Part shown: positions 5,197-22,682 of the stretch, piece by piece
How the letters are laid out: the number at the start of each line of letters is the position of its first letter
Position numbering within the stretch: the stretch's first letter is position 1
IMG/VR virus record: IMGVR_UViG_3300032829_000152
Span: 1-24,597 of that record
Source of the DNA: a virus
Reading direction: 5' to 3' (one strand)
DNA: 24,597 nucleotides
Notes under the pieces: generated by a model
Told to the model about the DNA's origin: nothing
The model's database searches: none
The model's input: only the letters and a program-made list of their open reading frames with translations
Program-made: the position numbers and the translations under genes

Positions 5197-5846
5197 AGTC
5201 CCGCCGCCTCGTTGACTTGTTGACCCGACGCCAATGCATTGGCCTTTTCTTGATCGTCAATCGCCTTTTCGAGCGGTGACATCGGTGGCTTTTGCTGATC
5301 GGCTTCGGGCTTCGTGTAGGCCGCACGCGGCAGCGGCATGATGTGCTTGAACTTCAGAGGTATGACCGTCCGCATCTTTTCTTCAATGTCCTCTTGCGGC
5401 TCAAACTTCGTCACGACTTGGGTAATACCAAGCGGCATCAATTGCGGGTGCCAAATTGACATCGACTTGCCAGGCGCATAGCCACCGCCGGAAGCACTGA
5501 CAGGCGAGAATCGACGCGGCACGTCGTGGATCAACTCGCGAAACACTTGCCAGTCCTGCCAGTCTTCGTCAGTCAGCAGAATAATCGGCATCGTGAACTC
5601 ACCGAGCAGGCGACCCGTGAACACCACGATCGACCAGTCCATGCCGTATCCGCGACGGTCGTCGAGCGCGCGCTCAATGCCGGCGCCTTGCGGTCCCAAG
5701 CAAATCCCGGGTGACCATACGCTACACAACATGAATTTGCTGATTGGGTTGCGGTGCGGCGACCAGCCGTTATTGCGACCAGACGGGCGCGGCTGGTAGT
5801 TGTAGACCGGTAGGTTGCTCGGGTAGCTTGCGTCGCTGAATGCCAT
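5193..5846 (-). CDS. Baseplate/tail adaptor protein, function unknown
   Basis: 217 aa, starting at the ATG at 5846, whose A is the last base of the tape-measure TGA (TGATG). Visible features are a Trp/Gly-rich N-terminus, a central beta-rich block ('WSIVVFTGRLLGEFTMPIIL' then 'DEDWQDWQVFRELIHDV') and a charged C-terminal tail rich in Lys, Glu and Gln. A protein at this spot between tape measure and hub is usually a tail-baseplate adaptor (gpX/LysM/gp53 or distal-tail type). There is no LysM motif. The call is positional; the family is not recognised. Confidence 0.6.
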   Translation of the reverse strand: MAFSDASYPSNLPVYNYQPRPSGRNNGWSPHRNPISKFMLCSVWSPGICLGPQGAGIERALDDRRGYGMDWSIVVFTGRLLGEFTMPIILLTDEDWQDWQVFRELIHDVPRRFSPVSASGGGYAPGKSMSIWHPQLMPLGITQVVTKFEPQEDIEEKMRTVIPLKFKHIMPLPRAAYTKPEADQQKPPMSPLEKAIDDQEKANALASGQQVNEAAGL

Positions 5847-7729
5847 CAGAACGCCCCCGCTTGTATGGCGACATTCTCGAGAATGATGCCGATTTGGTTC
5901 TGCAACGCATGCAATGGAATCGTCACGGTTCCGGGCGCATTCTGGGCGGCTTGTGGAAAGTGCATGTCGCCAAATGACATCGAACGCGAAACATTGGCCG
6001 TGGGCCTTCCGACTTGTGCGGCCTGGACTTGAGGCACTCTCGCGGTCATGACAGCAGCGGCGCGTACCGCTGGTGCATTTGCGCGAATGCCAAGCGCGTA
6101 ACCTAGTGTCCAGTCGCGCCCCGTCACCATGGCCCGGCGTGACGGCGAGTGCGCTTGGATTGCATCCTTGGCGGCCTTGTCGGCTTGCTGGGCAGCATCC
6201 TTGGCAGCGGCGACAAGGGCGGGTGTTGCCTGGTGGATGCCTTCGATCATTCCGTTGATTGCACTAAGTCCCGTGTTGACAAAGCTCTTGGGGTCATCGA
6301 CTTCCTTGAACTTGTCTTTCATGAATTGGTACGAACTCTTGTAAGCCGAGATCAATTGCTTTGGACTCTTGGCTTCATCCACACTCTTGTTCAGATAGTT
6401 GATCGACTGGTACGTGGCGCCCAGATATTGGAAGGCTTTGACTAACTTCAACGCTGCACTGACCGACATCAGCATGCCGGTTGCGAGTGCCGCGGCTGCC
6501 TGGGCAAGCCCCGCCAATACAGATCCGCCATCGCCAAGGTTTTTGAAGTACTTACGGAACCCACCCATTTTGATAAACGCACCCTCGGCCTTGAGCGCAT
6601 ACAGCGTGATTTCCTGAAGGAAAATCTTCACCGTGCTGCCGGCCTTGGGCGCATTCGAAAACAGCGAGTCGAACATGCGCCCCAAGATACCGCGCCACGC
6701 ATTGAACGTTACGGTGCCCTGATCGAACACGCTCAGGACTTCGTGCATGCCCTTGAGCAAAGGGTCGATTTTCAGACCACGGAAAAGTGCGTTCAGGTTC
6801 TCTTTGAGCTTTCGACTCTGGACGTCGAGCGAAAGCATCTGCTGCTCGACAATTTTGCCAAACCGTGCATGCACCTTGGCGTACATCTGCGCGCCACTCT
6901 GGCCCGAGTACAGCGCAAACAACGCCATGTTCTTGACCAGTTGCGCCTGGCCTTCACCCGCCGCGCTTCCGGCTTCCGCCATGGCCTTGAGCGCGTAGCT
7001 GGCCGTCGCTCCCCGCAGGCCCATCTGATAGATCTCACGCGAGTACTGCAGAACCTTGTCACGGCCGATCGCGACATTCTGCGAGACCGCGTTGATATCA
7101 GCCTGCAGTTGCGTTGCACTGCCGGGCCTGAGCGCCATGCCCCACATGAACCGATAGGCATGAGTCAAGCCTTCGAGTTCGAGACGTTCCGAACGATAGG
7201 CATCGGCAGCCGTGACGGCATAACGCGCAAGACTAACAGCTGACTTGGCCATCCCGTAATCGAGTGCAATAACGGCCGCCAGCGCAATGATGGCGGCACC
7301 AGCAACCCCGGCCTTGCCAAGTGACATCGTCAGCGATCCGCAATGCTGGTGTAGCGACGCAAACGGACCGCCTGCCATCCGCATGCCGCTCGACAAGTCA
7401 CCGATGAACTTGTGCGATTCGCGCGTGGCTTGCCCGAGTTCCTTTTGTGACTTGAAAAGCTTACCAAGTCCGCCCTTCATTTGGGTCGCCGACAAGACAT
7501 TTAGGCCCATCTCTTTCTTAAAGGCCTTCTGCTTTTTGTTCAGCGCCTCGTATTGTTCGGAACTCTTGAGGCCCGCTTGTTTGAGAGCCGTCAATACCTT
7601 TTGCGTGACCTGGACTTGCTCGGTAAGCTTCCGGTGCGACTCGGCCAGAGTTGTGGCTCTTTGACGCGCAGCCTCGTAGGACTCCGCGCCCTTGAGCGAT
7701 AGATCTAGTTCCCAGGTTGCGTCAGCCAC
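5846..7729 (-). CDS. Tail tape measure protein
   Basis: 627 aa, starting with GTG at 7729 behind a GGAGG ribosome site (spacer ~5 bases). The N-terminal ~120 residues are helical and Lys/Gln/Glu-rich (coiled-coil-like). Hydrophobic segments follow at about residues 140-170 and 405-430, and the C-terminal third carries 'AHSPSRRAMVTGRDWTLGYA', the SPSxxxxxxG...G motif common at the end of tape-measure proteins. It follows the tail assembly chaperones, as in almost all long-tailed phages. Tape measures scale at roughly 1.5 angstrom per residue, so a tail near 90-95 nm is inferred. Confidence 0.9.
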   Translation of the reverse strand: MADATWELDLSLKGAESYEAARQRATTLAESHRKLTEQVQVTQKVLTALKQAGLKSSEQYEALNKKQKAFKKEMGLNVLSATQMKGGLGKLFKSQKELGQATRESHKFIGDLSSGMRMAGGPFASLHQHCGSLTMSLGKAGVAGAAIIALAAVIALDYGMAKSAVSLARYAVTAADAYRSERLELEGLTHAYRFMWGMALRPGSATQLQADINAVSQNVAIGRDKVLQYSREIYQMGLRGATASYALKAMAEAGSAAGEGQAQLVKNMALFALYSGQSGAQMYAKVHARFGKIVEQQMLSLDVQSRKLKENLNALFRGLKIDPLLKGMHEVLSVFDQGTVTFNAWRGILGRMFDSLFSNAPKAGSTVKIFLQEITLYALKAEGAFIKMGGFRKYFKNLGDGGSVLAGLAQAAAALATGMLMSVSAALKLVKAFQYLGATYQSINYLNKSVDEAKSPKQLISAYKSSYQFMKDKFKEVDDPKSFVNTGLSAINGMIEGIHQATPALVAAAKDAAQQADKAAKDAIQAHSPSRRAMVTGRDWTLGYALGIRANAPAVRAAAVMTARVPQVQAAQVGRPTANVSRSMSFGDMHFPQAAQNAPGTVTIPLHALQNQIGIILENVAIQAGAF

Positions 7730-8374
7730 GGAAGCCTCCGAGCGCGCGCAACATGGCCTCTATTTTCAAAAGCGAACCCAACCCTGTAGTCACGAAGTCA
7801 GCGAGCAGCAATGACGCTACCCGTTGATTCGTGAACTCTTCGGTGTTGGATGCTTCTGGAAATAATGCCATGAGATACCGTCCAGCCAGACCAGGGTCTC
7901 GGTGTGCTGCATCCCTGGCCTCTATTATTTTCCCTCGAAATCTGCGCCCGAGCGCCCGCTAATGTTGACCGCGACAGCCGCGGCGGCTTCCTTGGCATCC
8001 TTGCAACCCGGATCGGATAACCAATTCTCAAGTTCGGCACCCGTCGGATAAACCAACGTTGGAGACTTGAGCACGCCGTCGATATCCTGTGGATCGATCG
8101 CCAAGTTGTTGACCACAGCAACATTGATTTTGCGTCCATACTTCTCGTATCTGAGCGGTTCAAGTTGCTGGACAACGATCATATTGCCAGTCGGCAACCA
8201 CACAACGCCCAGATCGTGGCCTAGTGTCTTGCCGGTTTGCTCTTCGATCTCGCCTAGTTTCTCCTCGTTCAGCTCGCGTTGCCGGTTGGCTCCGTCGGCC
8301 AAGTCCTTGAGCTTGGCAGCTCGACGTTCGCGGATGAGTTCGATCTTGCTTTTCTCAGTGCTTTTTTCGGTCAT
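7722..8374 (-). CDS. Tail assembly chaperone, long -1 frameshift product (joined frames)
   Basis: Ribosomes reading the short chaperone frame (8374 to 7928) meet the slippery heptamer G GGA AAA at 7934-7928, directly before the TAA stop. A -1 slip there opens a frame of 68 codons (IIEARDAAHRDPGLAGRY ... LRALGGFRG) that ends with TGA at 7724-7722, overlapping the GTG start of the tape measure by 8 bases. The fusion would be 149 + 68 = 217 aa. Long-tailed phages conserve exactly this pair (lambda gpG/gpGT, P2 gpE/E+E', Mu gp41/42), in which both forms bind the tape measure and tube subunits during tail assembly. The frame was not flagged as an ORF because it has no start codon of its own. Confidence 0.85.
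7889..7934 (-). promoter_or_regulatory. -1 programmed ribosomal frameshift signal
   Basis: On the minus strand the order is: slippery heptamer GGGAAAA (7934-7928) in the correct X XXY YYZ phase, spacer TAATAGA (7927-7921, 7 bases, including the zero-frame stop), then an 8-bp hairpin GGCCAGGG (7920-7913) pairing with CCCTGGTC (7896-7889), one G-U pair, 16-base loop. All three elements and spacings fit the established -1 frameshift design. Position at the chaperone/tape measure junction makes coincidence unlikely. Confidence 0.85.
7925..8374 (-). CDS. Tail assembly chaperone, short form
   Basis: 149 aa. I choose the ATG at 8374 (MTEKSTEKSKIELIRER) because GAGGAG stands about 8 bases upstream, embedded in the end of the tube gene. 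The longer frame to 8479 lies inside that gene. The protein is charged and helical at the N-terminus (residues 1-50) and contains a compact alpha/beta domain with 'GHDLGVVWLPTGNMIVVQQL', 'DPQDIDGVLKSPTLVYPTG' and a 'DAKEAAAAVAVNISG' helix. Position between tube and tape measure and the frameshift signal at its 3' end identify it as the short chaperone. It is a non-virion assembly factor. Confidence 0.85.
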   Translation of the reverse strand: MTEKSTEKSKIELIRERRAAKLKDLADGANRQRELNEEKLGEIEEQTGKTLGHDLGVVWLPTGNMIVVQQLEPLRYEKYGRKINVAVVNNLAIDPQDIDGVLKSPTLVYPTGAELENWLSDPGCKDAKEAAAAVAVNISGRSGADFEGK

Positions 8375-8379
8375 TGTCG

Positions 8380-8946
8380 TTACTCCTCGGTGCTGTCGTA
8401 CAGCGTCGCGCCCGAGATATTCATGCGCAACGCGGTAAATTCTGTCTCGCACTTCAGGCCGTCGGCGCCCTTTTCCCACGTGCCACCGTCGCCGACCAAG
8501 TACACGGTGTAATAGTTGAGCACAGCCTGAATGCCACCATCATCAATGAACAGCTGCCAGTTCATCCGAATATCGCCGATGCTTCGGAGGCGACTTGGGC
8601 CAACGTCGGCATACTGCGAGAGGAACGCGAGGAAACTCTTCCACTGTTGAATACCCTGATTGCCTGGTGTGCCATTCAGCGGTTCGCTCAGGTAAGAGTG
8701 CGCGTGCCATCCGATCTTTGGCTTCGGGTTTTCATACTGGCCGGCACTGAAACCAAGCGGAGCGCCCGATCTCAGCTGACCATACTCGGCGGTACGCTCG
8801 CGCTTTTGCGCACCCATGTCGAATGAATGGATGCCATAGAAGCGGCCGCCAACGCCGCCGAAATCGGGAAGGCTAACGATCCAACGCGCGTGCGGCCAGG
8901 AAACTAAGTCTTGATTCAAAATGGGCAGGTCAATTCCGTTTGCCAT
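8380..8946 (-). CDS. Tail tube protein
   Basis: 188 aa, starting at ATG 8946 behind an AAAGGTGA ribosome site, 10 bases after the sheath stop. It lies exactly between sheath and tail chaperone, where contractile-tail phages encode the tube. The chain is beta-rich, with aromatic-rich strands ('GGRFYGIHSFDMG', 'VLNYYTVYLVGDGGTWEKG') and a helical stretch near residues 105-120. The length is typical of P2 FII/Mu M tube proteins (120-190 aa). No motif is diagnostic by eye, so the call relies on order and size. Confidence 0.75.
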   Translation of the reverse strand: MANGIDLPILNQDLVSWPHARWIVSLPDFGGVGGRFYGIHSFDMGAQKRERTAEYGQLRSGAPLGFSAGQYENPKPKIGWHAHSYLSEPLNGTPGNQGIQQWKSFLAFLSQYADVGPSRLRSIGDIRMNWQLFIDDGGIQAVLNYYTVYLVGDGGTWEKGADGLKCETEFTALRMNISGATLYDSTEE

Positions 8947-8956
8947 GGTTCACCTT

Positions 8957-10783
8957 TCATAGACTCGAGACGATTTGATCCGTCCATTCGATTGTTTGCA
9001 GGTAGGCAAGTGTAACGAGCTTTCCCGACACATTCATTGTCACGGGTAGGTTGTTAAGGTTGTCGGTACGCGACACAGTAACGCGCTGACCAGAGACTTG
9101 TTTGCCCATCACGTCATTGATCAAATCGTTGACAGTTTGTTCAAGCCTGCGCGCTTCGGACTCGAGGATATAGCCGGTCTTGGTGTCCTTGTCGATTCCA
9201 ATTGCCAACTGCTTACGGAAGTACGCGCGCGCAATGTTGGTATGCTTGTTCAGCAGGTCGCGCATCATAACGAACGTCATGCTAGTTGCAACCTGTTGCC
9301 AGAGCACGAACATGCGCGGGTTGTTTACGTAAATTCCCTCTGGCTGCGTCGTGGCCGTTATGAACCCGTAGTCGTCCATAGCTCCATTATCTAGCGAAGC
9401 ATCGTAGCAGTCGGGGTTACCGTTGACGTCTGCGAGGATGCAGGGCAAACCGGGGCGGTCGGTGCGAGCGGTGTCGATCTCTTCGCTTACCGTTGCCATG
9501 TCGAGCGCGGCCAGCAATGCGAACGGGCGCTTGTGCAAGAACCCTGTGATGGCGCTAATGATCTTGCAATCGCCGAAACCGATCGAACCGAAGAACATCT
9601 GCCCAACGAGCCCTTGGAATGTCTGTCCAGCGGTCGCATGAGCCGCGGAGCTTTCACCATCGTTCTGCATTCGGAAAGAGCCGATCCAAGACTTCTCTTG
9701 ATTGATACCAGTTTTGTAGTAGCTGGCGAAAATCGCATCAATGGCTTGTGCCATACCGGCATCGCCCGACTGGAATTGCCCGCACATGATAACGCGTCGG
9801 CCCCAGTTGGTTTTGTTCTGAAACAGCGCCGTAAGTGCCAACGATACACTGTTCTGATTGTACGACGGCGCGTAACAGCGGAACGACAATTGCGCACCCG
9901 TTATGATGGTTTCGGCGGACGTCCCGAGAATAACCTTGGCGCCACTAGTGCCCGTGCCTGTACCGGTTCCCGGCACTACAATGTAGAGTGCGGTTCCAAG
10001 GTTCATGATGGGCGACCAGTCACTTGGACTCGTCGTTGGCGTGCCGCCTAGCCCGCCTTTGCTCGTCGAATACTGGTACGTGATGCCAGCAGTCCCTAGA
10101 GCACCGCCAGTATTGAACTTAATTATGACGTCATAGTCGTTGTCGGGATAGTACGTATTATCAAGACTCGCCGAACCCGTGCCACCGGTTCCGGGGTATA
10201 GCGTAGTGTTGAGAGTTCCCTCGCTACCCTGCGCGATGAAACTGCACACCACGGTTATGATTTCGGAAGCCACCAGAGTTCCGGAACCAAAGTCCAAAGT
10301 GAGTGTTTTGGTTCCAAGGGTTATGGCAATCGACGTTGCCGTACTTAGCGCCGTGGTTGTTCCGTAGGTTTGTCCGCCGTCGGTTGACACCGCATACTGA
10401 CCGCCCGAAACCCCAATCGTGCAGCCCGTAATGATAGCGACGCACACGGTAACGTTTAGATCTGTGCCACTGCCGGCGTCCACGGTGACTGCCGATGTTC
10501 CGTGGTTACTCGTACGCCCAGGGGTCCCAAATGAGCTAGCGGCTGTTGCGGCCGCGCGCACTGCGAGCACTGGCAAGCCAAAGTACTTGATCGCAATTGC
10601 GGCCCACGAAGCCAAGGGCCCGCCCTTGAAAACCGACGAAGCCTGCGACGGTTGCGTCAATGGCGTTGGCGTGTTGAGCGGTCCGTCGTCAGCGGGTCCG
10701 ACCATCGGGACAAAAGGCACACCGCCCTGGGCGAATGCCGCGTCGTTTGAATAGATTGCGTTGGCAATAACTTGGTTGCGCAT
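8957..10783 (-). CDS. Contractile tail sheath protein
   Basis: 608 aa, ATG 10783 with CGAGG about 9 bases upstream and just beyond the stop of the preceding gene (TAAAATG). The N-terminus shows the sheath pattern 'GPADDGPLNTP' and 'FKGGPLASWAAIAIKYFG'. The C-terminal part has the helical and beta region leading to 'GQRVTVSRTDNLNNLPVTMN' and a terminal 'LQTIEWTDQIVSSL'. Residues ~90-300 hold two tandem beta-rich Gly/Thr modules, each with a 'Y..ST..GG' turn and a late 'GTLVASEII/ETIITGAQ' strand, one containing the GTGTGTGTSG tract. Mu L sheath is about 495 aa, so the extra modules likely decorate the outer tail surface. Confidence 0.85.
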   Translation of the reverse strand: MRNQVIANAIYSNDAAFAQGGVPFVPMVGPADDGPLNTPTPLTQPSQASSVFKGGPLASWAAIAIKYFGLPVLAVRAAATAASSFGTPGRTSNHGTSAVTVDAGSGTDLNVTVCVAIITGCTIGVSGGQYAVSTDGGQTYGTTTALSTATSIAITLGTKTLTLDFGSGTLVASEIITVVCSFIAQGSEGTLNTTLYPGTGGTGSASLDNTYYPDNDYDVIIKFNTGGALGTAGITYQYSTSKGGLGGTPTTSPSDWSPIMNLGTALYIVVPGTGTGTGTSGAKVILGTSAETIITGAQLSFRCYAPSYNQNSVSLALTALFQNKTNWGRRVIMCGQFQSGDAGMAQAIDAIFASYYKTGINQEKSWIGSFRMQNDGESSAAHATAGQTFQGLVGQMFFGSIGFGDCKIISAITGFLHKRPFALLAALDMATVSEEIDTARTDRPGLPCILADVNGNPDCYDASLDNGAMDDYGFITATTQPEGIYVNNPRMFVLWQQVATSMTFVMMRDLLNKHTNIARAYFRKQLAIGIDKDTKTGYILESEARRLEQTVNDLINDVMGKQVSGQRVTVSRTDNLNNLPVTMNVSGKLVTLAYLQTIEWTDQIVSSL

Positions 10784-13999: not shown

Positions 14000-14872
14000 T
14001 TAGCTCACCAGCTTTCCGTATGTGGACGCGAGAAGCTTCTGCACTTCCGTTGCCTGCTCAGAATTCACGAGTCCAACACCAATGCGGCCGTCTGCAAACT
14101 GCAGAAGCGGGACCGACGATGCCGCAGGAATGATCCCGGCCTTCTCAAGGTTGTGCCGTGGGATCATCTTGAGGCCCTGAATTTCTTCAGGCGTCAACGC
14201 AAATGCGTTTTGTTGCTGCTCACCACGTACACCAAGCGCGCGACCGGGCAGGATTGGCGTCAGGGCTTCAGGAGCCTTGGGCGCCTTGGCCTTGACTTTG
14301 GTTGCCTTGGCGGTTGTTGCAACTTGTTTCTTCAGTCCGGCAATCGATCGCGCATTGGCAGCATTGACGGTTTGCTGGCGAGCATGTAGCTCGTAGCGCG
14401 ACGCCTGGGCGTCCAATGACTTGCACTGCGAGAGCTTGCGCGCGGCATCTTTGGCCTTGCCGTTGCACGCCAGCATCAGGGCATCGTCACGCGCCGCCGC
14501 GGACTGGGCACGCAGGGCCTTGGCCTTGGCTTTGGCTTTCTTGGCGTCGGTTTCCGACTCGTCGGCGCGCTTGGCATCTTCGCTGCCGTCATCAGCCTTG
14601 GCACTTCCATTGGCCGCTGCCTTGTCGTCGGTCTTGTCTTCGGCTTCGGTCTCGCCGCCGTCTTCGCCCTCGGTTTCGCCTTCGGCTTCGGCTTCGGTCT
14701 CGCCGCCGTCTTCGGATTGTTCCTCTTCATCCTTCTTTGGCCTAGGCTCGCCGTTGGGTTTCTCTTCCGGCGCTTTGTCTTCCATGTAGGCGTCAAATGC
14801 GCGCTTTGCGCGTGCAGCCTCTTCGCCATCGCCCGCTGCTTCGTCGAGCAGCATTTTCTTTAATGCACTCAT
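14000..14872 (-). CDS. Capsid scaffold protein candidate, acidic and repeat-rich
   Basis: 290 aa, ATG 14872 overlapping the portal-protease stop by 4 bases. Residues ~30-110 are dominated by Glu, Asp, Gly, Thr and Ala, with a repeated GGETEAE unit. Residues 110-180 are Lys/Ala-rich helices and include a basic run (KKAKAKAKALRAQ). The last ~100 residues are a compact domain ('LTPEEIQGLKMIPRHNLEKA' ... 'DGRIGVGLVNSEQ'). A long charged helical body plus a small C-terminal capsid-binding domain, placed after the protease and before the capsid gene, fits a scaffold that the S49 protease would degrade. It replaces the nested scaffold found inside the protease in many Mu/lambda-like phages. Confidence 0.7.
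   Translation of the reverse strand: MSALKKMLLDEAAGDGEEAARAKRAFDAYMEDKAPEEKPNGEPRPKKDEEEQSEDGGETEAEAEGETEGEDGGETEAEDKTDDKAAANGSAKADDGSEDAKRADESETDAKKAKAKAKALRAQSAAARDDALMLACNGKAKDAARKLSQCKSLDAQASRYELHARQQTVNAANARSIAGLKKQVATTAKATKVKAKAPKAPEALTPILPGRALGVRGEQQQNAFALTPEEIQGLKMIPRHNLEKAGIIPAASSVPLLQFADGRIGVGLVNSEQATEVQKLLASTYGKLVS
14638..14714 (-). repeat. 29-base direct repeat in scaffold gene
   Basis: A 29-base stretch occurs at 14638-14666 and again at 14686-14714, 48 bases apart (16 codons). Each copy encodes part of a Glu/Gly/Thr-rich GGETEAE unit. The repeat lies within the acidic domain of the scaffold, which probably grew by in-frame slippage. Confidence 0.85.
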
Positions 14873-17334
14873 GGTGTCTCACTTTCTTCGCCGCTCGACG
14901 CGGCCAATATGGTCGCAACCTCCAAAGCCTGCGAGTAGTCGCAAACCTTGTCGGCCAACCCTAACCTCACGAGATCAGCGCCGAGATACACACGGCCCCT
15001 GAACTCTCGAACCTTTTCGATGTCGAGCTTGCGCCGCTCGGCAACCAACGCGAAGAAAATTTCCGACTGCTCATCAACGCGGCGCTGTAACTCTTCGCGG
15101 GCTTCGTCGGTAAGCTCAAGGAACGGGTGACCATCGGCCTTGTGCTCGCCAGACCGAATCAACTCAACGTCGATGCCCGCGGCTTCATACGCGCGTTTTT
15201 CGCTCTTTGCCTCAAAGTACACACCAATCGACGCACCGCTGGCTTCCTGGGGTACCAACACCAAATCAGCTGCCATCGCCAATGCCCACGCCGCCGACGA
15301 CGTCTCGCCGTCAACGAACCAAACCAAGGGCTTGCCAGTAGCGTCTGCCATGCGGCGTAACTCGCGCGAGGCCTCGAAGCACCCCGCAACTTCGCCGCCG
15401 GGACTCGTGCAACGCACAAGCACGACCTTGGCTTCGCCATCGAACGCCTGGCGCGCGGTATCCAGAATCAAGTCGTAGGTATGGAAGGGCGGTTGCTGAC
15501 ACCATTCACATGCGCAGCCGTGGTGCTCAAGCGGACCCTGGATCGAAATCAGTGCAATGTCACCGACGGGTTCGACGTTGAGCGCATCAGCAGGGGCGTA
15601 TTGAGCATTGAGCCCCGAGTCAGTAATGGCCAAAATCTGTCCGGCATGCGTGGCTTTGAAGTCATGCTGATGCTTCAGTGTAGTCTGAACTGCACGGGCT
15701 TCAATCTTTGCCCTTGAACGCCGCGGAGCCTTGGCCTTTGGTTTCTTGGTTTGCTCGGCATGCTGGGCTTGGATCTCGTATGCCGCGAATCGTTCCTTTG
15801 GGATCTCGACGTCGTTTTGCGTGTACGCATTGGCGCGCGCCGAACGGAACGGGCCGCCCTTGTATCGCGCATTCGCGGCGGGCAACTGCGGCAGGCTTTC
15901 AGGAGCCTTGAGCGAGTCGGTCAGCTCCTGTATCGTCATCTTACCGCGTTCGTCGCCAATCGGTCCCAACCCTTGTGACATGCGGGCTTCGTCAACGGTG
16001 ACTACCTTGGCGACGTCAGTTGGAGCCATGCCAAGCTGAACCGATCGGCCTTGCTCTGGACGCTTGATCAGCGTGAGCCCGTAACGTCCGAAGACGGCAG
16101 CAACGTCAATGTCGTACCCGCTGCGAGCCGCCGCATCCTGTAGTTGTTGGATGCCCGCTCCTATTGCCGTGTAGACGCTGGCTTCCTTTGACAAGTCTTG
16201 TGGCTGCTCGACTTTGTACAGATACCCCGGGCATTCGTCGAACTCTTCGGGGAATCGGTTGTACGTGTAGATCGGCAAGATCTGAGTGTTGACGGTGTGC
16301 GCCAGCGGGACCGCGGTTTCTTCGAGCAAGTCTGTCCGAATGTTCATCGGCATGTCTTCGGAACTAAATCCCGAACCACCGGTAATGGACTGCAACTGCC
16401 CCGCCAATCCAATGATGATCTCTTCGCTCGCCAACTTGATCGCGGACTCGAAGCCTTCCCATCCGCGCCCATTGGTTTCAAGGATCTTGGCTTCCCAACC
16501 CGGGATCAACTCGAACACCGAATTGATGCCCCACATAGCCAACGACTCAAAGAAATTCTGGCGCTGCGTCGGCGTCGCGCCTTGCGGGGCGTAACCAACA
16601 CGCGCGGGATTGGCGAGCGTGAACATCCAGTTGTCAAACAGGTGTTGCGCCGAATCCTTGCGGACCCAGCTGCGCCCAACCGACCAGCACAAGCCGTCCT
16701 GCCATGGTGAGAGTCCACCGGCGGTCTCGAACACCCAACGCCCATCGCCAGGAATGATCGGCAAGATGCCGGCGGTCGATCGAAACACCCAAAGATTCCA
16801 CGGCCACAAGTAATAGAGGTTCTCTGGTTCCTTGCGTTCGAGTATTGGATAGTCTCGCCCCTCAACAGGCACGAGTTCGCCAACCGCTACACCCAACAGA
16901 TCGAAGTCTTCGGCCATCTTGCGCAGCTGTTGCGGAGGCGCGAGCAAGTCAAATCGTGGAATGCCGTGGTCGGTCTCGGTCAAGTCTTCGCGAACGCGCT
17001 CGGAACCAAACCACTCTTTTTTGAGTCGCGTGACGCCGCCCGACTTCGTGCGCAGCAAGCCGTGAATCAACAGGTCGCGCTTCATTGCGCGCGCCAGTCC
17101 TGCTGCACGTTGCATGTCGCCGATGTCAGCCATGCGGGTTGCGATGTCTACGTCCTCTAGCAGCCATTCGGTTTGCGTTATCGGCGGACGCTGCAGCTGG
17201 CCTCCAAGTGCCATCCGGACGGCGTCAACAATGCCGCTGTCAAGGGGTAGCCCCGGCAACGGCCCATTTTTCCTCCAGAATTTGCTGAATCCTAGAAGCT
17301 CACCTGCTCGCGCAAGAAAGCCAGCATTGGGCAT
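14869..17334 (-). CDS. Portal protein fused to S49 (SppA-type) capsid protease
   Basis: 821 aa, ATG 17334; an in-frame TAA two codons upstream fixes the start, and its ribosome site is weak. Residues ~1-470 look like a Mu gp29/DUF935-type portal: 'ENLYYLWPWN', 'GLSPWQDGLCW', 'EIIIGLAGQLQS', ending in a portal-like 'TVDEARMSQGLGPIG' near 446-460. A Lys/Arg/Pro-rich linker covers ~528-546. Residues ~590-800 are an S49 protease: 'ISIQGPLEHH', 'LVRCTSPGGEVAGCFEA', 'ETSSAAWALA' with the probable nucleophile S680, 'SGASIGVY', and 'IRSGEHKADGHPF' with the probable base K732, the Ser-Lys dyad. An unusual CACEWC cluster lies at 607-612. Portal and protease are normally separate genes. Confidence 0.85.
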   Translation of the reverse strand: MPNAGFLARAGELLGFSKFWRKNGPLPGLPLDSGIVDAVRMALGGQLQRPPITQTEWLLEDVDIATRMADIGDMQRAAGLARAMKRDLLIHGLLRTKSGGVTRLKKEWFGSERVREDLTETDHGIPRFDLLAPPQQLRKMAEDFDLLGVAVGELVPVEGRDYPILERKEPENLYYLWPWNLWVFRSTAGILPIIPGDGRWVFETAGGLSPWQDGLCWSVGRSWVRKDSAQHLFDNWMFTLANPARVGYAPQGATPTQRQNFFESLAMWGINSVFELIPGWEAKILETNGRGWEGFESAIKLASEEIIIGLAGQLQSITGGSGFSSEDMPMNIRTDLLEETAVPLAHTVNTQILPIYTYNRFPEEFDECPGYLYKVEQPQDLSKEASVYTAIGAGIQQLQDAAARSGYDIDVAAVFGRYGLTLIKRPEQGRSVQLGMAPTDVAKVVTVDEARMSQGLGPIGDERGKMTIQELTDSLKAPESLPQLPAANARYKGGPFRSARANAYTQNDVEIPKERFAAYEIQAQHAEQTKKPKAKAPRRSRAKIEARAVQTTLKHQHDFKATHAGQILAITDSGLNAQYAPADALNVEPVGDIALISIQGPLEHHGCACEWCQQPPFHTYDLILDTARQAFDGEAKVVLVRCTSPGGEVAGCFEASRELRRMADATGKPLVWFVDGETSSAAWALAMAADLVLVPQEASGASIGVYFEAKSEKRAYEAAGIDVELIRSGEHKADGHPFLELTDEAREELQRRVDEQSEIFFALVAERRKLDIEKVREFRGRVYLGADLVRLGLADKVCDYSQALEVATILAASSGEESETP

Positions 17335-17430: not shown

Positions 17431-17637
17431 ATGAGCACACAACGACTAGGACCCGGCGAGCAGAAAATCATTTCAACCACAGTACCCTGCGACAAGCGCA
17501 CGGTTCGGCGATACGCGCAAGGCGAACTCAGTCCGCGATCGATCGCGTTCGTTAAGATCGAAATGAAGTGCCGCGAACTCGGTTACCCCACAATCCCGCA
17601 AACCCGATCGCAGTCGCAAGGCAAGACGAAGTCATGA
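17431..17637 (+). CDS. Small helix-turn-helix-like DNA-binding protein
   Basis: 68 aa, ATG 17431 with GAGG about 8 bases upstream. Residues ~8-45 ('GEQKIISTTVPCDKRTVRRY', then a helix 'SPRSIAFVKIEMKCREL') have the spacing of a helix-turn-helix: a helix, a turn at VPCDK, a recognition-helix-like TVRRYAQGE, and a further helix. The tail (residues 50-68) is basic and polar. It is the first gene of a rightward operon and stands next to two operator-like repeats, so a repressor/activator of the cassette, possibly autoregulating, is likely. It resembles small phage Cro/excisionase-type proteins in size only; no family is assigned. Confidence 0.6.
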   Translation: MSTQRLGPGEQKIISTTVPCDKRTVRRYAQGELSPRSIAFVKIEMKCRELGYPTIPQTRSQSQGKTKS

Positions 17638-18200
17638 AAATTCTAGACGTCACGCCGCTCGCCATCCCGGACGTCAAGCTCATAAGGTTTGCGCGCTTCG
17701 AAGACGAACGCGGATTTTTCACCGAGCCCTACCGGCAGAGCCAATTGCAGGAAGTCATCGGTGCGCCGATCGTTCAGATGAACGAAAGCTACTCGCGCGC
17801 TGGCGTGCTGCGTGGCCTGCACTTCCAATGGAACCCTTACATGGGAAAGCTTGTGCGAATTATCTACGGAGAAATGGACGACCTGACGATGGACATTCGC
17901 TTGGGCTCACCGACGTTCGGTAAAATAGTTTCACAGCTTATGGCACCAGGGGGGAGAAATATTGATGAATGGCTTTGGGTCCCACCGGGTTTCGCACACG
18001 GAAATTATTTCAATGACAATTCGCACATCGAGTACCTGTGCACCGGAGAATACAACCCCGACTGCGAGGCCTGCATTCGGGCGAGTTATCGGCGTCGTGA
18101 TTCTATTGTCAGCGACAAGGACCGCCACGGCATGACGCTCGAACAATGGAAGAACGATCCTAGGTCTGAGAACTTCCGTTACCCAATGGTGACGCCATGA
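17634..18200 (+). CDS. dTDP-4-dehydrorhamnose 3,5-epimerase-like (RmlC-type cupin)
   Basis: 188 aa. ATG 17634 overlaps the preceding TGA by 4 bases; the frame upstream to 17568 lies inside that gene. The RmlC signature is clear: 'DERGFFTE' (25-31), 'NESYSRAGVLRGLHFQ' with catalytic H63, 'MDIRLGSPTFGK' (86-97), 'EWLWVPPGFAHG' (112-123), a candidate catalytic Tyr at 140 in 'EYLCTGEYNP', and 'SDKD' (160-163) with the dyad Asp. The usual RWNDPxLxIxWP segment is replaced by a different stretch (RASYRRRDSIVS), so the exact sugar substrate may differ. Known family members epimerise dTDP-4-keto-6-deoxyglucose in L-rhamnose synthesis. Cytoplasmic. Confidence 0.88.
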   Translation: MKILDVTPLAIPDVKLIRFARFEDERGFFTEPYRQSQLQEVIGAPIVQMNESYSRAGVLRGLHFQWNPYMGKLVRIIYGEMDDLTMDIRLGSPTFGKIVSQLMAPGGRNIDEWLWVPPGFAHGNYFNDNSHIEYLCTGEYNPDCEACIRASYRRRDSIVSDKDRHGMTLEQWKNDPRSENFRYPMVTP

Positions 18201-19054
18201 TGGTATTGGTATTTGGTGGGACCGGCATGCTGGGGTCCGATGTCTGTCGAGCGCTAGAACTTCGTGAACACGAAGTTGAGGCACCCCGACACAATCGCGT
18301 CGATATTGAGAACTTAAAGGAGCTGCGCGAGTGCGTCCTAGCAGTCAAGCCTAATGCAGTCGTAAACTGCGCGGCGTTGCATGACTGCGCCGAGTGTGAA
18401 CGCAACCCGGTGTCGGCCTTGTCAGTGAACTCACTAGCCGTCAGTTACATGGCAACGTTGTGCGGGATCGTTGGTGCAAGGTTTATGACGGTCAGCACCG
18501 ATTACGTGTTTGATGGCACGAAGCCCGAAGGCTACACAGAAGACGATGAAACCGATCCGGTCAACCGATACGGGGAAACCAAATTGTTGGGAGAGATTTA
18601 CGCGACGGCACAATCTAAGGTCTTCGTTGTCCGTGTCCAAAACCTGTACGGCCTGGCGCCGTGCCGCGGAAAGGGCAAGGGACTGGTTGACGCCATCATT
18701 GAGAAATCCAAAACTGGTGCCAATGCCTATGTCGATCAGCGCATAGCGGCGCCGACGTGGACCTATCCACTCGCTGAGAACATGGTCAGGCTACTCGAGA
18801 CCGAACACTACGGCTTGTATCACATGAGCTGCCAGGGTCCCGTTAGCTGGTTTGCATTTGCCAGACAACTTGCGTACATGCTCGGCGACAAGTGTCACGT
18901 CGAACCCGTTGAGAACAACTACATCAAAACAACGTTCAGGCGTCCCGAGAATACGTATTTGATCAATCGAAACCTACAACGCGTCGGCATGGACTACATG
19001 CCAGACTGGAAAGTTGCACTAGACGACTACCTGAGAGCAAGGGGGCTACTGTGA
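18197..19054 (+). CDS. dTDP-4-dehydrorhamnose reductase-like (RmlD-type)
   Basis: 285 aa, ATG 18197 overlapping the previous stop by 4 bases. Seen: the Rossmann motif GGTGMLG (7-13), 'VVNCAALHDCAECE' (55-67), 'STDYVFDG' (100-107), the catalytic Y125xxxK129 ('YGETKLLGE') and 'DQRIAAPTWTYPLAE' (180-194), the order of RmlD. Family members reduce the 4-keto group of dTDP-L-lyxo-4-hexulose using NAD(P)H to yield dTDP-L-rhamnose. Length (285 aa) is normal. The gene is coupled to an RmlC-like partner, so they very probably act in sequence. No rmlA or rmlB is nearby. Confidence 0.88.
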   Translation: MMVLVFGGTGMLGSDVCRALELREHEVEAPRHNRVDIENLKELRECVLAVKPNAVVNCAALHDCAECERNPVSALSVNSLAVSYMATLCGIVGARFMTVSTDYVFDGTKPEGYTEDDETDPVNRYGETKLLGEIYATAQSKVFVVRVQNLYGLAPCRGKGKGLVDAIIEKSKTGANAYVDQRIAAPTWTYPLAENMVRLLETEHYGLYHMSCQGPVSWFAFARQLAYMLGDKCHVEPVENNYIKTTFRRPENTYLINRNLQRVGMDYMPDWKVALDDYLRARGLL

Positions 19055-20001
19055 AAATCCTAGTTATTGGAGGCGCGGGCTACATTGGCTCGGTGCTGGT
19101 TCTGGCATTGCTTGAACACGGGTATCGTGTGGACGTATTAGACATCGGTTGGTTTGGCAGTGTCCTTACGCTGGCGAGCTTGCCACGCGATGCTCACCAG
19201 TTAAAGGAACATCACTTGGAACGCTACGACCAAGTGATCAACCTAGCCGGCGTGTCGAATGACCCGATGGCAGAACACGACCCAGCGCGTAACTTCGTGG
19301 ACAACGGCGCCTTAGCCGCGCACATCGCCTACACGGCCAAGCGCGCTGGCGTACGTCGTCTCATTTATGCTTCGTCTTGCTCGGTGTACGGCTACACCGT
19401 CAACGAGTTGTATGATGAGCAGAGTCCAACGCCTTGCACGTTTCCCTACGGGATCAGCAAGTTGCAGGGCGAGTGCGGTGTCATGCATCTTCAGGATTCG
19501 ACATTTTCGGTCATCGCACTGCGCAAGGGAACGGTCTGCGGCTACTCGCCAAGGATGCGGTTCGATCTGCTCGTTAACACCATGTACAAATGCGCCGTTA
19601 CGGATGGCAAGATCACGGTCAGCAACGCGTCGCTATGGCGGCCCGTGTTGGACATTCGGGATTGTGTCGCGGCATACCTGAGAGCCGTGCAAGCCAATTA
19701 CTCGGTCAGCGGCGTGTTCAACGTGGCGTCACAGAATTGCACGGTCGGGCACGTTGCCGATAGGGTCAAGGACACGTTGCTAATGGACTACGATATTCCG
19801 TGCGCGGTCGAGATCCAAGACGTTCAGGATTTGCGCAACTACAAGGTTTCAACCCAGCGGGCGCGCAACACCCTGAACTTTGAACCGCGCTACGAAATCG
19901 GCGATATCGTACGCAGCATTCACGAGAACCGCGCCGAGTATGGCGACATAAATGCCGATAAGTACTACAACATTCGCGTATTCAAAGGACTGACACCATG
20001 A
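19051..20001 (+). CDS. NAD-dependent sugar-nucleotide epimerase/dehydratase (extended SDR)
   Basis: 316 aa, starting with GTG 19051 (GTGA overlap with the previous stop). Motifs: GGAGYIG (7-13) NAD-binding, 'VINLAGVSNDP', 'IYASSCSVYG' (105-114), the catalytic Y133xxxK137 ('YGISKLQGE') and 'LRKGTVCGYSPRMRFDLLVN' (157-176), a segment characteristic of epimerases in lipopolysaccharide gene clusters, plus 'RPVLDIRDC'. Such enzymes epimerise or dehydrate a nucleotide sugar, often at C4. The substrate cannot be told from sequence. It provides a second activated sugar or alters the first one in the pathway of the adjacent RmlC/RmlD pair. Confidence 0.85.
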   Translation: MKILVIGGAGYIGSVLVLALLEHGYRVDVLDIGWFGSVLTLASLPRDAHQLKEHHLERYDQVINLAGVSNDPMAEHDPARNFVDNGALAAHIAYTAKRAGVRRLIYASSCSVYGYTVNELYDEQSPTPCTFPYGISKLQGECGVMHLQDSTFSVIALRKGTVCGYSPRMRFDLLVNTMYKCAVTDGKITVSNASLWRPVLDIRDCVAAYLRAVQANYSVSGVFNVASQNCTVGHVADRVKDTLLMDYDIPCAVEIQDVQDLRNYKVSTQRARNTLNFEPRYEIGDIVRSIHENRAEYGDINADKYYNIRVFKGLTP

Positions 20002-22121
20002 GATCCTGCCTAGTCGTGTTATCTGTGCACAACGGTTTGGAATACGTCAAACCATGCCTTGAGTCGGTTCTGCGCAATACCAATCCAGATGTTCCGATAC
20101 TGGTCGTGGACGATGCCAGCACCGACAGGCGGACCATTGAGTATCTTGAGACGTTGCCACGTGAGCGCGTGATTCAGTCGCGCAACAAATGGAACATGGG
20201 CTTCCCGCGCACGATGAACGAAGTCATGACGGCATGGGCTGATTGCGATGTATTGATGCTCAACACCGACACCATTGTTCCGCCGAGCTGGGTCGAGCGA
20301 ATGCAACGAGCGTTGTATGCCAGACCCAAGACGGCAGGCGTCTGCGCACTGTCGAGTAATGCGACGCTTGTCAGCGTACCAAATTCTGGTGAAAATGAGT
20401 GGCCTAAATGGCTGGGCGTTGACGATATGGACCGAATCGTCAACGAAACATCCGATCACTGCTACCCCGAGTTGCCAACGCTGCACGGCTTTTGTATGCT
20501 GCTCAGTCGAGATGCAATCGAAGACCTGGGAGTGTTCGATCACGCATTCGGTAAAGGATACGGAGACGAAACTGAATGGAGCCTCAGAGCAATTGCAAAG
20601 GGCTGGAAAGTCTTAGCCTGTGATGACCTGTACGTCTGGCACCGAAGTCACGCGACGTATGGGGTTGAGCAACGCGACAAACTTTCTAAGAATGCTATAC
20701 GGATCATTCTTGACCGGTATCCACATTATCCCGAAAGTGTTCGCGAATGGTGGAACACGTCTCCGCTGCGAGCACACAAAATGCGGATCTTTGACAGGCT
20801 GCGCGCCAGGCCTGCCGACGGGCACCGCAGAGTTAAGGTCCTATATGTCGTGCACAACTGGGACGGGTGGGGCGGACTCGAGATCTACTCGCGACGAATG
20901 GTCAAAGAGCTGTGCGACGAAATTGAGTTTTCAGTTGCATACCCAACACGGTTCCCGATTGGTGACGACGGGTACGTCGATACAGAGACTAACGGAGTCT
21001 TGCGTTTGCGCATGGCGCAACAACTGACAGACACCGAGGTTTGGATTGGTGAATTCCCGTTGAGCAATAGCAACGCGAATGTCGAGCACTGGTTCGACGA
21101 AGTCCTAACTGGACTACAACCAGACGTTGTGCACTTCCATCACCTGGGCGGCTGGGGTACGTTCGAGTTACCAGCCATTGCCAAGCGGCATGGCTGCGCG
21201 ACTGTGATGAGTCTACACGATGACTTCTATTTGTGCTCACTGCTCAGAATTGGCGGATCGTGTCACAAATCCGGCATGAGTGGCAATGCCGAGTGTCTGG
21301 AGTGCATTCAAGGAAACGATCGCCTATGCTGCCACAAACAAACCACCGAATCCGACATTCTGAGAAGACTTGACGGCAGACTCCCGGCGGCGCGCGCCAT
21401 GGCGCAACACATTGACAAGGTTGACGCACCTTCGGAATACCTCAAGCAAACCTACATGGATATTTTCGGCGACCGCATTGAAGTCATCCCGCACGGTGTC
21501 AAGGTCGAACCGGTTGTTTCGCTACACCACAAGTCCGACAAGCTGCGCGTGGGTTGGATCGGTGCAGCCAATGACCGCAAGGGTTTCCAGGCTTTCGCCG
21601 ATGCGGCCTATGAACTTAATGGCCGTCAAGATATTGAATGGAATGTTTGGGGACCGCTCAACAATTCGGTGAACGTCTCAAAACTGTCGCATGTAAAATT
21701 CCATGGACCCTTTGACGCCGGAACCCTTGGGACATGGCTGCAAACCATTGACTTGGCAGTTGTGCCGGCAATGCGGAACGAAACCTATGGATCGATCGTG
21801 GACGAAGTCGCATCTTACGGCATACCGACGCTTGTTGGAAATGTTCCGGCAATTCACGAGAGACTTAACTCCGAGCACTATCCGAACGTTGTCGAGTACG
21901 AATGGGGGAACGGTTCAGAGCTGGCGGACATAATAACTGGGCTAGCGCGGGAACGTCATCAGCATCTTCCATTCGTCAAGCTCAAGTCCTTCGAAGACAA
22001 TGCGCGCGACTACTTGAGGATCTATCTAGAGCTTACAACAATGAAAGGATGCGATAATGTCCACTCTGCAAACGGTGAAAGTTTCAGCGGTCAACATCGA
22101 CTGGGAGCATGGTTTCCCTAG
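19998..22121 (+). CDS. Two-domain glycosyltransferase (GT2 + GT4)
   Basis: 707 aa, ATG 19998 with a 4-base overlap. Residues ~1-250 are GT-A/GT2: 'ILVVDDASTD', the D-x-D-like 'LMLNTDTIVPPS' (86-97) and 'HGFCMLLSRDAIEDLGVFD', followed by 'GYGDETEWSLRA' (187-198) with the likely catalytic acidic residue. Residues ~278-680 are GT-B/GT4: 'KVLYVVHNWDGWGGLEIYSR', 'PDVVHFHHLGGWG', 'VGWIGAANDRKGF' and the EX7E motif E595-E603 in 'NETYGSIVDEVASYGIPT'. Cysteines 422-445 are of the kind seen in some GT4 enzymes. One chain could add two sugars, or different sugars at two steps. The last ~20 codons overlap the next gene. Confidence 0.88.
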   Translation: MRSCLVVLSVHNGLEYVKPCLESVLRNTNPDVPILVVDDASTDRRTIEYLETLPRERVIQSRNKWNMGFPRTMNEVMTAWADCDVLMLNTDTIVPPSWVERMQRALYARPKTAGVCALSSNATLVSVPNSGENEWPKWLGVDDMDRIVNETSDHCYPELPTLHGFCMLLSRDAIEDLGVFDHAFGKGYGDETEWSLRAIAKGWKVLACDDLYVWHRSHATYGVEQRDKLSKNAIRIILDRYPHYPESVREWWNTSPLRAHKMRIFDRLRARPADGHRRVKVLYVVHNWDGWGGLEIYSRRMVKELCDEIEFSVAYPTRFPIGDDGYVDTETNGVLRLRMAQQLTDTEVWIGEFPLSNSNANVEHWFDEVLTGLQPDVVHFHHLGGWGTFELPAIAKRHGCATVMSLHDDFYLCSLLRIGGSCHKSGMSGNAECLECIQGNDRLCCHKQTTESDILRRLDGRLPAARAMAQHIDKVDAPSEYLKQTYMDIFGDRIEVIPHGVKVEPVVSLHHKSDKLRVGWIGAANDRKGFQAFADAAYELNGRQDIEWNVWGPLNNSVNVSKLSHVKFHGPFDAGTLGTWLQTIDLAVVPAMRNETYGSIVDEVASYGIPTLVGNVPAIHERLNSEHYPNVVEYEWGNGSELADIITGLARERHQHLPFVKLKSFEDNARDYLRIYLELTTMKGCDNVHSANGESFSGQHRLGAWFP

Positions 22122-22230
22122 TTTCAGCGTACAGTTCAACGGGTCCAGTCGTCGCCAAGTCGTTGATGAAGATATTGCAGAAGCGTTCGTTCAAGAACTA
22201 TACGAGAGGCAAGATCCATGCAAACCCTAG
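22057..22230 (+). CDS. 57-aa protein of unknown function
   Basis: The ATG at 22057 (MSTLQTVKVSAVNIDWEHGF) is preceded by AAGGA about 8 bases upstream, stronger than most signals here. It runs 57 codons to TAG at 22228-22230, in a different frame from the glycosyltransferase, whose tail it overlaps by 65 bases. The next gene's ATG (22218) also lies inside it, so the genes are chained. It shows a beta-like first half ('FPSFSVQFNGSSRRQVV') and an acidic C-terminal helix ('DEDIAEAFVQELYER'). No family recognised; too short to appear in the usual length filter. Confidence 0.55.
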   Translation: MSTLQTVKVSAVNIDWEHGFPSFSVQFNGSSRRQVVDEDIAEAFVQELYERQDPCKP

Positions 22231-22682
22231 AAACATACCTACTCAAGTTCACGCCGTGTCTGTTGCTTGTTTGGATACTGGTCGGTTGTAGCGGTCCCGC
22301 TTTCACTACAGATGACACCGCGCCCGATCCACAACTTGCCACGACCGGCGGGCAATCGTCCATGATAGCAACGGGTGGATCGAACTCTGTCGACTCGCCA
22401 GAAAATAACAACTACGGACCAGACGCGACTGGAGGCGCGGCGGCACACGAGACCGGAGGACGCATGGCAACCGGTGGCAATGCGCCCACGGGTGGCAATG
22501 TCTCGACTGGCGGCGCTCAGAATACCACTGGTGGATCGGCTTCGGCACCGTGTCTAGGCTTGGAGTTGCCGCAAGAATATCCGGCGCAAATGTGTTGCTG
22601 CATTACGCCGTCTGGTGCCAAGCCCTATTGGAATTGCATTGACATCTCCGGTTGTACCGCCGGTGAGAATTGCGGGTGCTAA
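22218..22682 (+). CDS. Phage-encoded lipoprotein with TGG repeats and Cys-rich C-terminus
   Basis: 154 aa, ATG 22218 behind GAGAGG. Residues 1-24 form a signal peptide ending in the lipobox L-V-G-C (C24), so the product should be lipidated at the outer membrane or cell surface of a Gram-negative host. Residues ~40-110 are a low-complexity ATGG/TGGN linker (for example 'ATGGNAPTGGNVSTGG'), as in many Myxococcota surface lipoproteins. The C-terminal ~45 residues hold eight cysteines (CLGLE, MCCC, WNC, GC, NCGC), suggesting a small disulphide-stabilised domain. It may be an outer-membrane spanin subunit, a superinfection-exclusion factor or a cell-surface moron; the sequence does not decide. Confidence 0.75.
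   Translation: MQTLETYLLKFTPCLLLVWILVGCSGPAFTTDDTAPDPQLATTGGQSSMIATGGSNSVDSPENNNYGPDATGGAAAHETGGRMATGGNAPTGGNVSTGGAQNTTGGSASAPCLGLELPQEYPAQMCCCITPSGAKPYWNCIDISGCTAGENCGC

Follow-up and report, generated by a model that had tools for sequence, protein, structure and literature searches.

A probable lambda G/GT-type -1 frameshift at the tail assembly chaperone of a divergent contractile-tailed phage

Knowledge of frameshifted tail assembly chaperones goes back to lambda, and the device is textbook material for tailed phages. In lambda G/GT the two frames overlap between the major tail protein and the tape measure, the shift is -1 on G GGA AAR (GGGAAAG, read as G GGA AAG) and the extension ends at the tape-measure gene. 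The contractile-tailed phages Mu (gp41/42) and P2 (E+E') also make a short and an extended chaperone at this gene position, Mu with a -2 shift and P2 with a -1 shift. The lambda shift occurs at a low level and makes G and GT, where the G part binds the tape measure and T binds the tube protein, and the ratio of the two products matters (PMC5009743). Many long-tailed phages share the arrangement, the shift being -1, -2 or +1 depending on the phage (PMC5009743). It is not universal: the transposable phage KS10 is reported to lack a recognisable site (PMC2628397).

Here we describe such a junction in a 24,597-base IMG/VR virus record (IMGVR_UViG_3300032829_000152), the whole of which was analysed and is called the window, and which is probably a fragment. 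The phage is contractile-tailed, with a divergent Mu-like tail module, and its tail genes lie on the minus strand in the order sheath, putative tube, 149-aa ORF, tape measure and baseplate genes. The order tube, chaperone, tape measure that the first-pass annotation of this DNA had given was borne out, the sheath and tape measure being assigned by PHROGs and the tube by position (the tube ORF had no family match), and the same order occurs in L008, a related contig described below. The features of the junction and its neighbours are:

8957..10783, minus strand: tail sheath protein (phrog_279; tblastn to the sheath of Thermus phage Riverbug and to L008)
8380..8946, minus strand: putative tail tube protein (by position)
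7925..8374, minus strand: probable short form of the tail assembly chaperone (gpG-like; 149 aa in the zero frame; lies between tube and tape measure, and its fold weakly resembles YqbN and HK97 chaperones)
7928..7934, minus strand: slippery heptamer G GGA AAA, in phase (same heptamer at the same place in contigs L008, L018 and L016)
7922..7927, minus strand: tandem zero-frame stops TAA TAG (read from the strand)
7889..7920, minus strand: candidate stimulatory hairpin of 8 pairs (one G.U) with a 16-nt loop (putative role; not conserved)
7722..7928, minus strand: -1 frame extension (gpT-like), 68 codons and TGA (profile built without the window, E 0.002; phrog_4594, E 0.0017)
5846..7729, minus strand: tape measure protein, 627 aa, GTG start (PHROGs tape-measure matches to 3.9e-12; 33% identity to L008)

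The junction resembles lambda in its gene position, overlapping frames and shift motif, and differs in its heptamer (GGGAAAA against GGGAAAG) and in belonging to a contractile-tail module. No sequence match was found between the window proteins and lambda G/GT or the Mu gp41/42 and P2 E+E' families. Contigs of a P2-like type (L035-L054; e.g. L035 15045, L052 15730) carry an in-phase TTTTTTG, rather than GGGAAAA; ahead of the tape measure they have a -1 extension, much as is known for P2 E+E'.

A GAGGAG ribosome-binding site precedes the ATG of the 149-aa ORF by 8 nt, and the 3' end of the ORF reads ...GAT TTC GAG GGA AAA TAA TAG, with the heptamer at 7934-7928 followed in the zero frame by TAA (7927-7925) and TAG (7924-7922). 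The placing of GGGAAAA in the right phase and immediately before the stop of the short chaperone, as first annotated, was checked by script and by reading the strand and is correct; it is the single in-phase instance among the window's 17 structural genes. The -1 frame reads on as GGG AAA ATA ATA GAG ...; counted from after GGG-AAA it has 68 codons and closes with the TGA at 7724-7722. Recomputation reproduced the claim that this frame stays open for exactly 68 codons and ends 8 bases inside the tape measure gene. The tape-measure GTG (7729-7727) stands behind GGAGG, and the ribosome-binding site is located within the extension, with which the gene overlaps by 8 nt. The short product would have 149 aa and the joined product 217 aa. 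A simple ORF caller does miss the extension, as had been proposed, with no ORF of at least 60 aa called there; its stop-to-stop frame is 78 codons long and has no early start.

An open 68-codon -1 frame arose by chance in 8.6% of shuffles and in 10% of the -1 frames of real genes. The other two forward frames across the same stretch contain 6 stops and 1 stop. An extension in the -2 (+1) frame, as in Mu gp41/42, was not found, the window's extension being in the -1 frame. Codon bias favours the extension as the best of six frames, but weakly: it scores 0.02 per codon (gene mean 0.26, wrong-frame mean -0.30), a value that 5.4% of non-coding (wrong-frame) chunks also reach. The site and open frame taken alone are moderately above chance and suggestive.

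The first-pass annotation had also counted a hairpin as part of a complete signal. Its geometry is as claimed, a 7-base spacer followed by an 8-bp hairpin (7920-7889; one pair G.U), and in a 40-nt folding segment it is more stable than expected (z = -2.0; better than 191 of 200 shuffles). A different fold displaces it in segments of 56-71 nt, where it is close to background, and at the equivalent place in relatives z is -1.6 in L008 and near or above 0 in L016-L018. The hairpin is present as described but not conserved, and is a candidate stimulator. Codon statistics and hairpin, on their own, do not prove frameshifting.

Relatives of the phage were difficult to find. Queries with single proteins (chaperone, sheath, portal-protease, capsid, baseplate J) gave no match in viral and genome collections, tblastn against 50,697 phage genomes found no relative of the chaperone, tube, tape-measure or capsid (nor, for the chaperone, any phage match at E 10), and the extension as a phage-search query gave chance-level matches only. 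Identities of 23-31% link the sheath, portal and baseplate J to Meiothermus phages MMP7/MMP17, Thermus phage Riverbug and Myxococcus phage Mx4. The portal ORF has a protease half, which matches S49-type head proteases of many phages. Judged by these comparisons the phage is very divergent and would belong to a lineage without a close isolate.

Other genes of the window were noted as well. One 821-aa ORF (14869-17334, minus strand) contains both a Mu-type portal (Portal_Mu, residues 80-392) and an S49 head-protease domain (residues 665-811); MMP7, Riverbug and Mx4 each have a separate portal gene. Adjoining the structural genes on the opposite strand is a sugar cassette (17631-22121, plus strand) comprising a dTDP-4-dehydrorhamnose 3,5-epimerase, an RmlD-like reductase, an NAD-dependent epimerase and a two-domain glycosyltransferase (GT2 and GT4), and at 22218-22682 (plus strand) there is a lipoprotein-like ORF with many repeated TGG residues.

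An alignment of baseplate J used as query recovered 48 loci in viral contigs. The best of the 48 was L008, another IMG/VR contig from another metagenome, with 40% identity over the length of baseplate J. It is syntenic with the window in its sheath, tape measure and baseplate proteins; besides baseplate J, the sheath, the tape measure and three other tail proteins match, and their order is unchanged. The L008 ORF between tube and tape measure ends ...D L A G K stop, with an in-phase GGGAAAA (4908) one codon before the stop, the sole XXXYYYZ heptamer on that strand of the 11,881-nt contig. Its -1 frame is open for 59 codons and leads to the tape measure. The same in-phase GGGAAAA stands at the junction in L018 (5089) and L016 (2797), and an in-phase AAAAAAA in L017 and Mx4, each with a -1 frame leading to the tape measure; L014 keeps the -1 extension without a strict heptamer, the sequence there being CACCAAAAATAG. 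The first-pass annotation had named, as evidence against its reading, relatives that keep the short protein and lose the slippery site and open -1 frame. We looked for these and found the opposite in L008, L018, L016, L017 and Mx4. At the level of sequence, the signal and frame arrangement are conserved in relatives, and we hold the frameshift signal to be real because a relative as distant as L008 carries it, the window alone being only suggestive.

These relatives also bear on whether a one-base sequencing or assembly indel in the run of A has split what is in truth a single 217-aa frame. Errors are common in homopolymers, and GGGAAAA is where the frame breaks, but we regard an error as very improbable because the independent and much diverged contig L008 breaks at the identical heptamer; equivalent breaks occur in L018, L016, L017 and the finished phage Mx4, and in the window two consecutive zero-frame stops follow, which is at odds with an indel.

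To examine the homology of the extension, those of five relatives (Mx4, MMP7, Riverbug, L008 and L017, the window being left out) were aligned, and the resulting profile was compared with all 480 stop-to-stop frames of at least 30 aa in the window. The window's -1 frame ranked 1 of 480 (E 0.0021, 12.9 bits; next 0.99). A three-sequence profile also placed it at rank 1, at E 0.52. The matched core is around RDPGLAGRYLMAL, with a VASLLLAD-like stretch next in the alignment. We treat the profile match as independent evidence for translation of this frame because the test uses neither codon usage nor the heptamer. Comparisons by hhalign with profiles of 3-4 sequences were not significant, nor was the window extension against that of L008 in a pairwise comparison alone (p 0.10), significance being reached with the profile only. 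The PHROGs family phrog_4594 also matches the extension (E 0.0017), but at a strict cut-off it had no match in 398 genomes and at a loose cut-off unrelated control genomes also matched, and it was left out of the main evidence because it could not be placed in genomes. By the five-member profile, the window extension is homologous to the presumed chaperone extensions of other phages.

It is likewise highly improbable that the extension is translated separately instead of as a fusion, whether through reinitiation or from a start codon within it, for instance the ATG at 7871. The short gene terminates within the -1 frame region, which makes termination-reinitiation conceivable, and the annotations of Meiothermus phage MMP7 and Mx4 show separate small ORFs here. 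We consider independent translation unlikely because the conserved core, most of what matches the family profile, starts upstream of the internal ATG, which itself has no preceding ribosome-binding site; separate translation would also leave the conserved in-phase heptamer at the stop without purpose. Least probable of all is slippage of RNA polymerase, adding or losing an A to give the same two proteins, because although some relatives have longer A runs (eight in Mx4, seven in L017), in the window, L008, L018 and L016 the GGG is followed by just four A, a run on which polymerase would not slip efficiently, and the in-phase tandem-slip pattern G GGA AAA is preserved.

The short protein itself gave little direct indication of function. 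Pfam, PHROGs and NCBIfam give no significant family match for it, nor did a profile built from seven related N-terminal parts find it significantly. Its AlphaFold model is poor (pLDDT 59), with a long helix, a beta hairpin and a helical part, and none of its PDB fold matches is significant, YqbN being at the top (E 0.08) and the HK97 tail assembly chaperone at rank 5 (E 1.1); several of the top BFVD matches of the model carry the name tail assembly chaperone. A profile of the aligned relatives matches 3fgx (RBSTP2171) at 5e-8. The identification of the short protein as a chaperone rests mainly on position, frame arrangement and extension.

The locus very probably encodes a standard -1 programmed ribosomal frameshift of the lambda G/GT type, yielding two forms of the tail assembly chaperone. 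The mechanism we infer, with its slippage in cells, its rate, a function for the hairpin and the protein contacts, would have most ribosomes stop at the TAA to give the 149-aa G-like chaperone, while a minority would slip back one base on G GGA AAA, the tRNAs re-pairing on GGG AAA, and read 68 further codons to give the 217-aa GT-like protein. By analogy with lambda, the common part may coat the tape measure and the extension may recruit tube subunits. We take the signal to be real and to be an ordinary case, within a divergent lineage, of a device that is well known.

The phages that share the extension do not all share the direction of the shift. Mx4 p57/p58 (OK085710) is like the window in its order of sheath, tube, chaperone, -1 extension and tape measure and has a related extension, and differs in its heptamer (A AAA AAA, in phase near the stop), in its low identity (about 21%) and in that the extension is annotated as a separate hypothetical gene. 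Mx4 p58 (L006 10264-10476) is best read as a -1 extension of p57, which has the in-phase AAAAAAA, and not as a separate gene. MMP7/MMP17 and Riverbug share the Mu-like tail module, a kinship shown by sheath, portal and baseplate J, and their extensions are part of the profile that finds that of the window. In contrast to the window, their extensions (L003 9310-9778; L004 17977-18440; L002 12547-13012) are in the +1 (or -2) frame without an XXXYYYZ heptamer, and a different shift would be needed. The annotations of MMP7 and Riverbug give part of the extension as a small hypothetical gene in its own right. We lean slightly towards the view that the direction of recoding has switched within one homologous pair of chaperone and extension, between -1 (window, L008, L017, Mx4) and +1/-2 (MMP7/MMP17, Riverbug).

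Our findings extend the frameshifted chaperone to a divergent contractile-tailed lineage whose short chaperone matches no Pfam, PHROGs or NCBIfam family. The extensions of the window, L008, L017, Mx4, MMP7 and Riverbug would form a small family whose members are called as separate small genes or missed by annotation pipelines. If the switch in direction is true, both products would have been conserved while the mechanism that makes them was exchanged.
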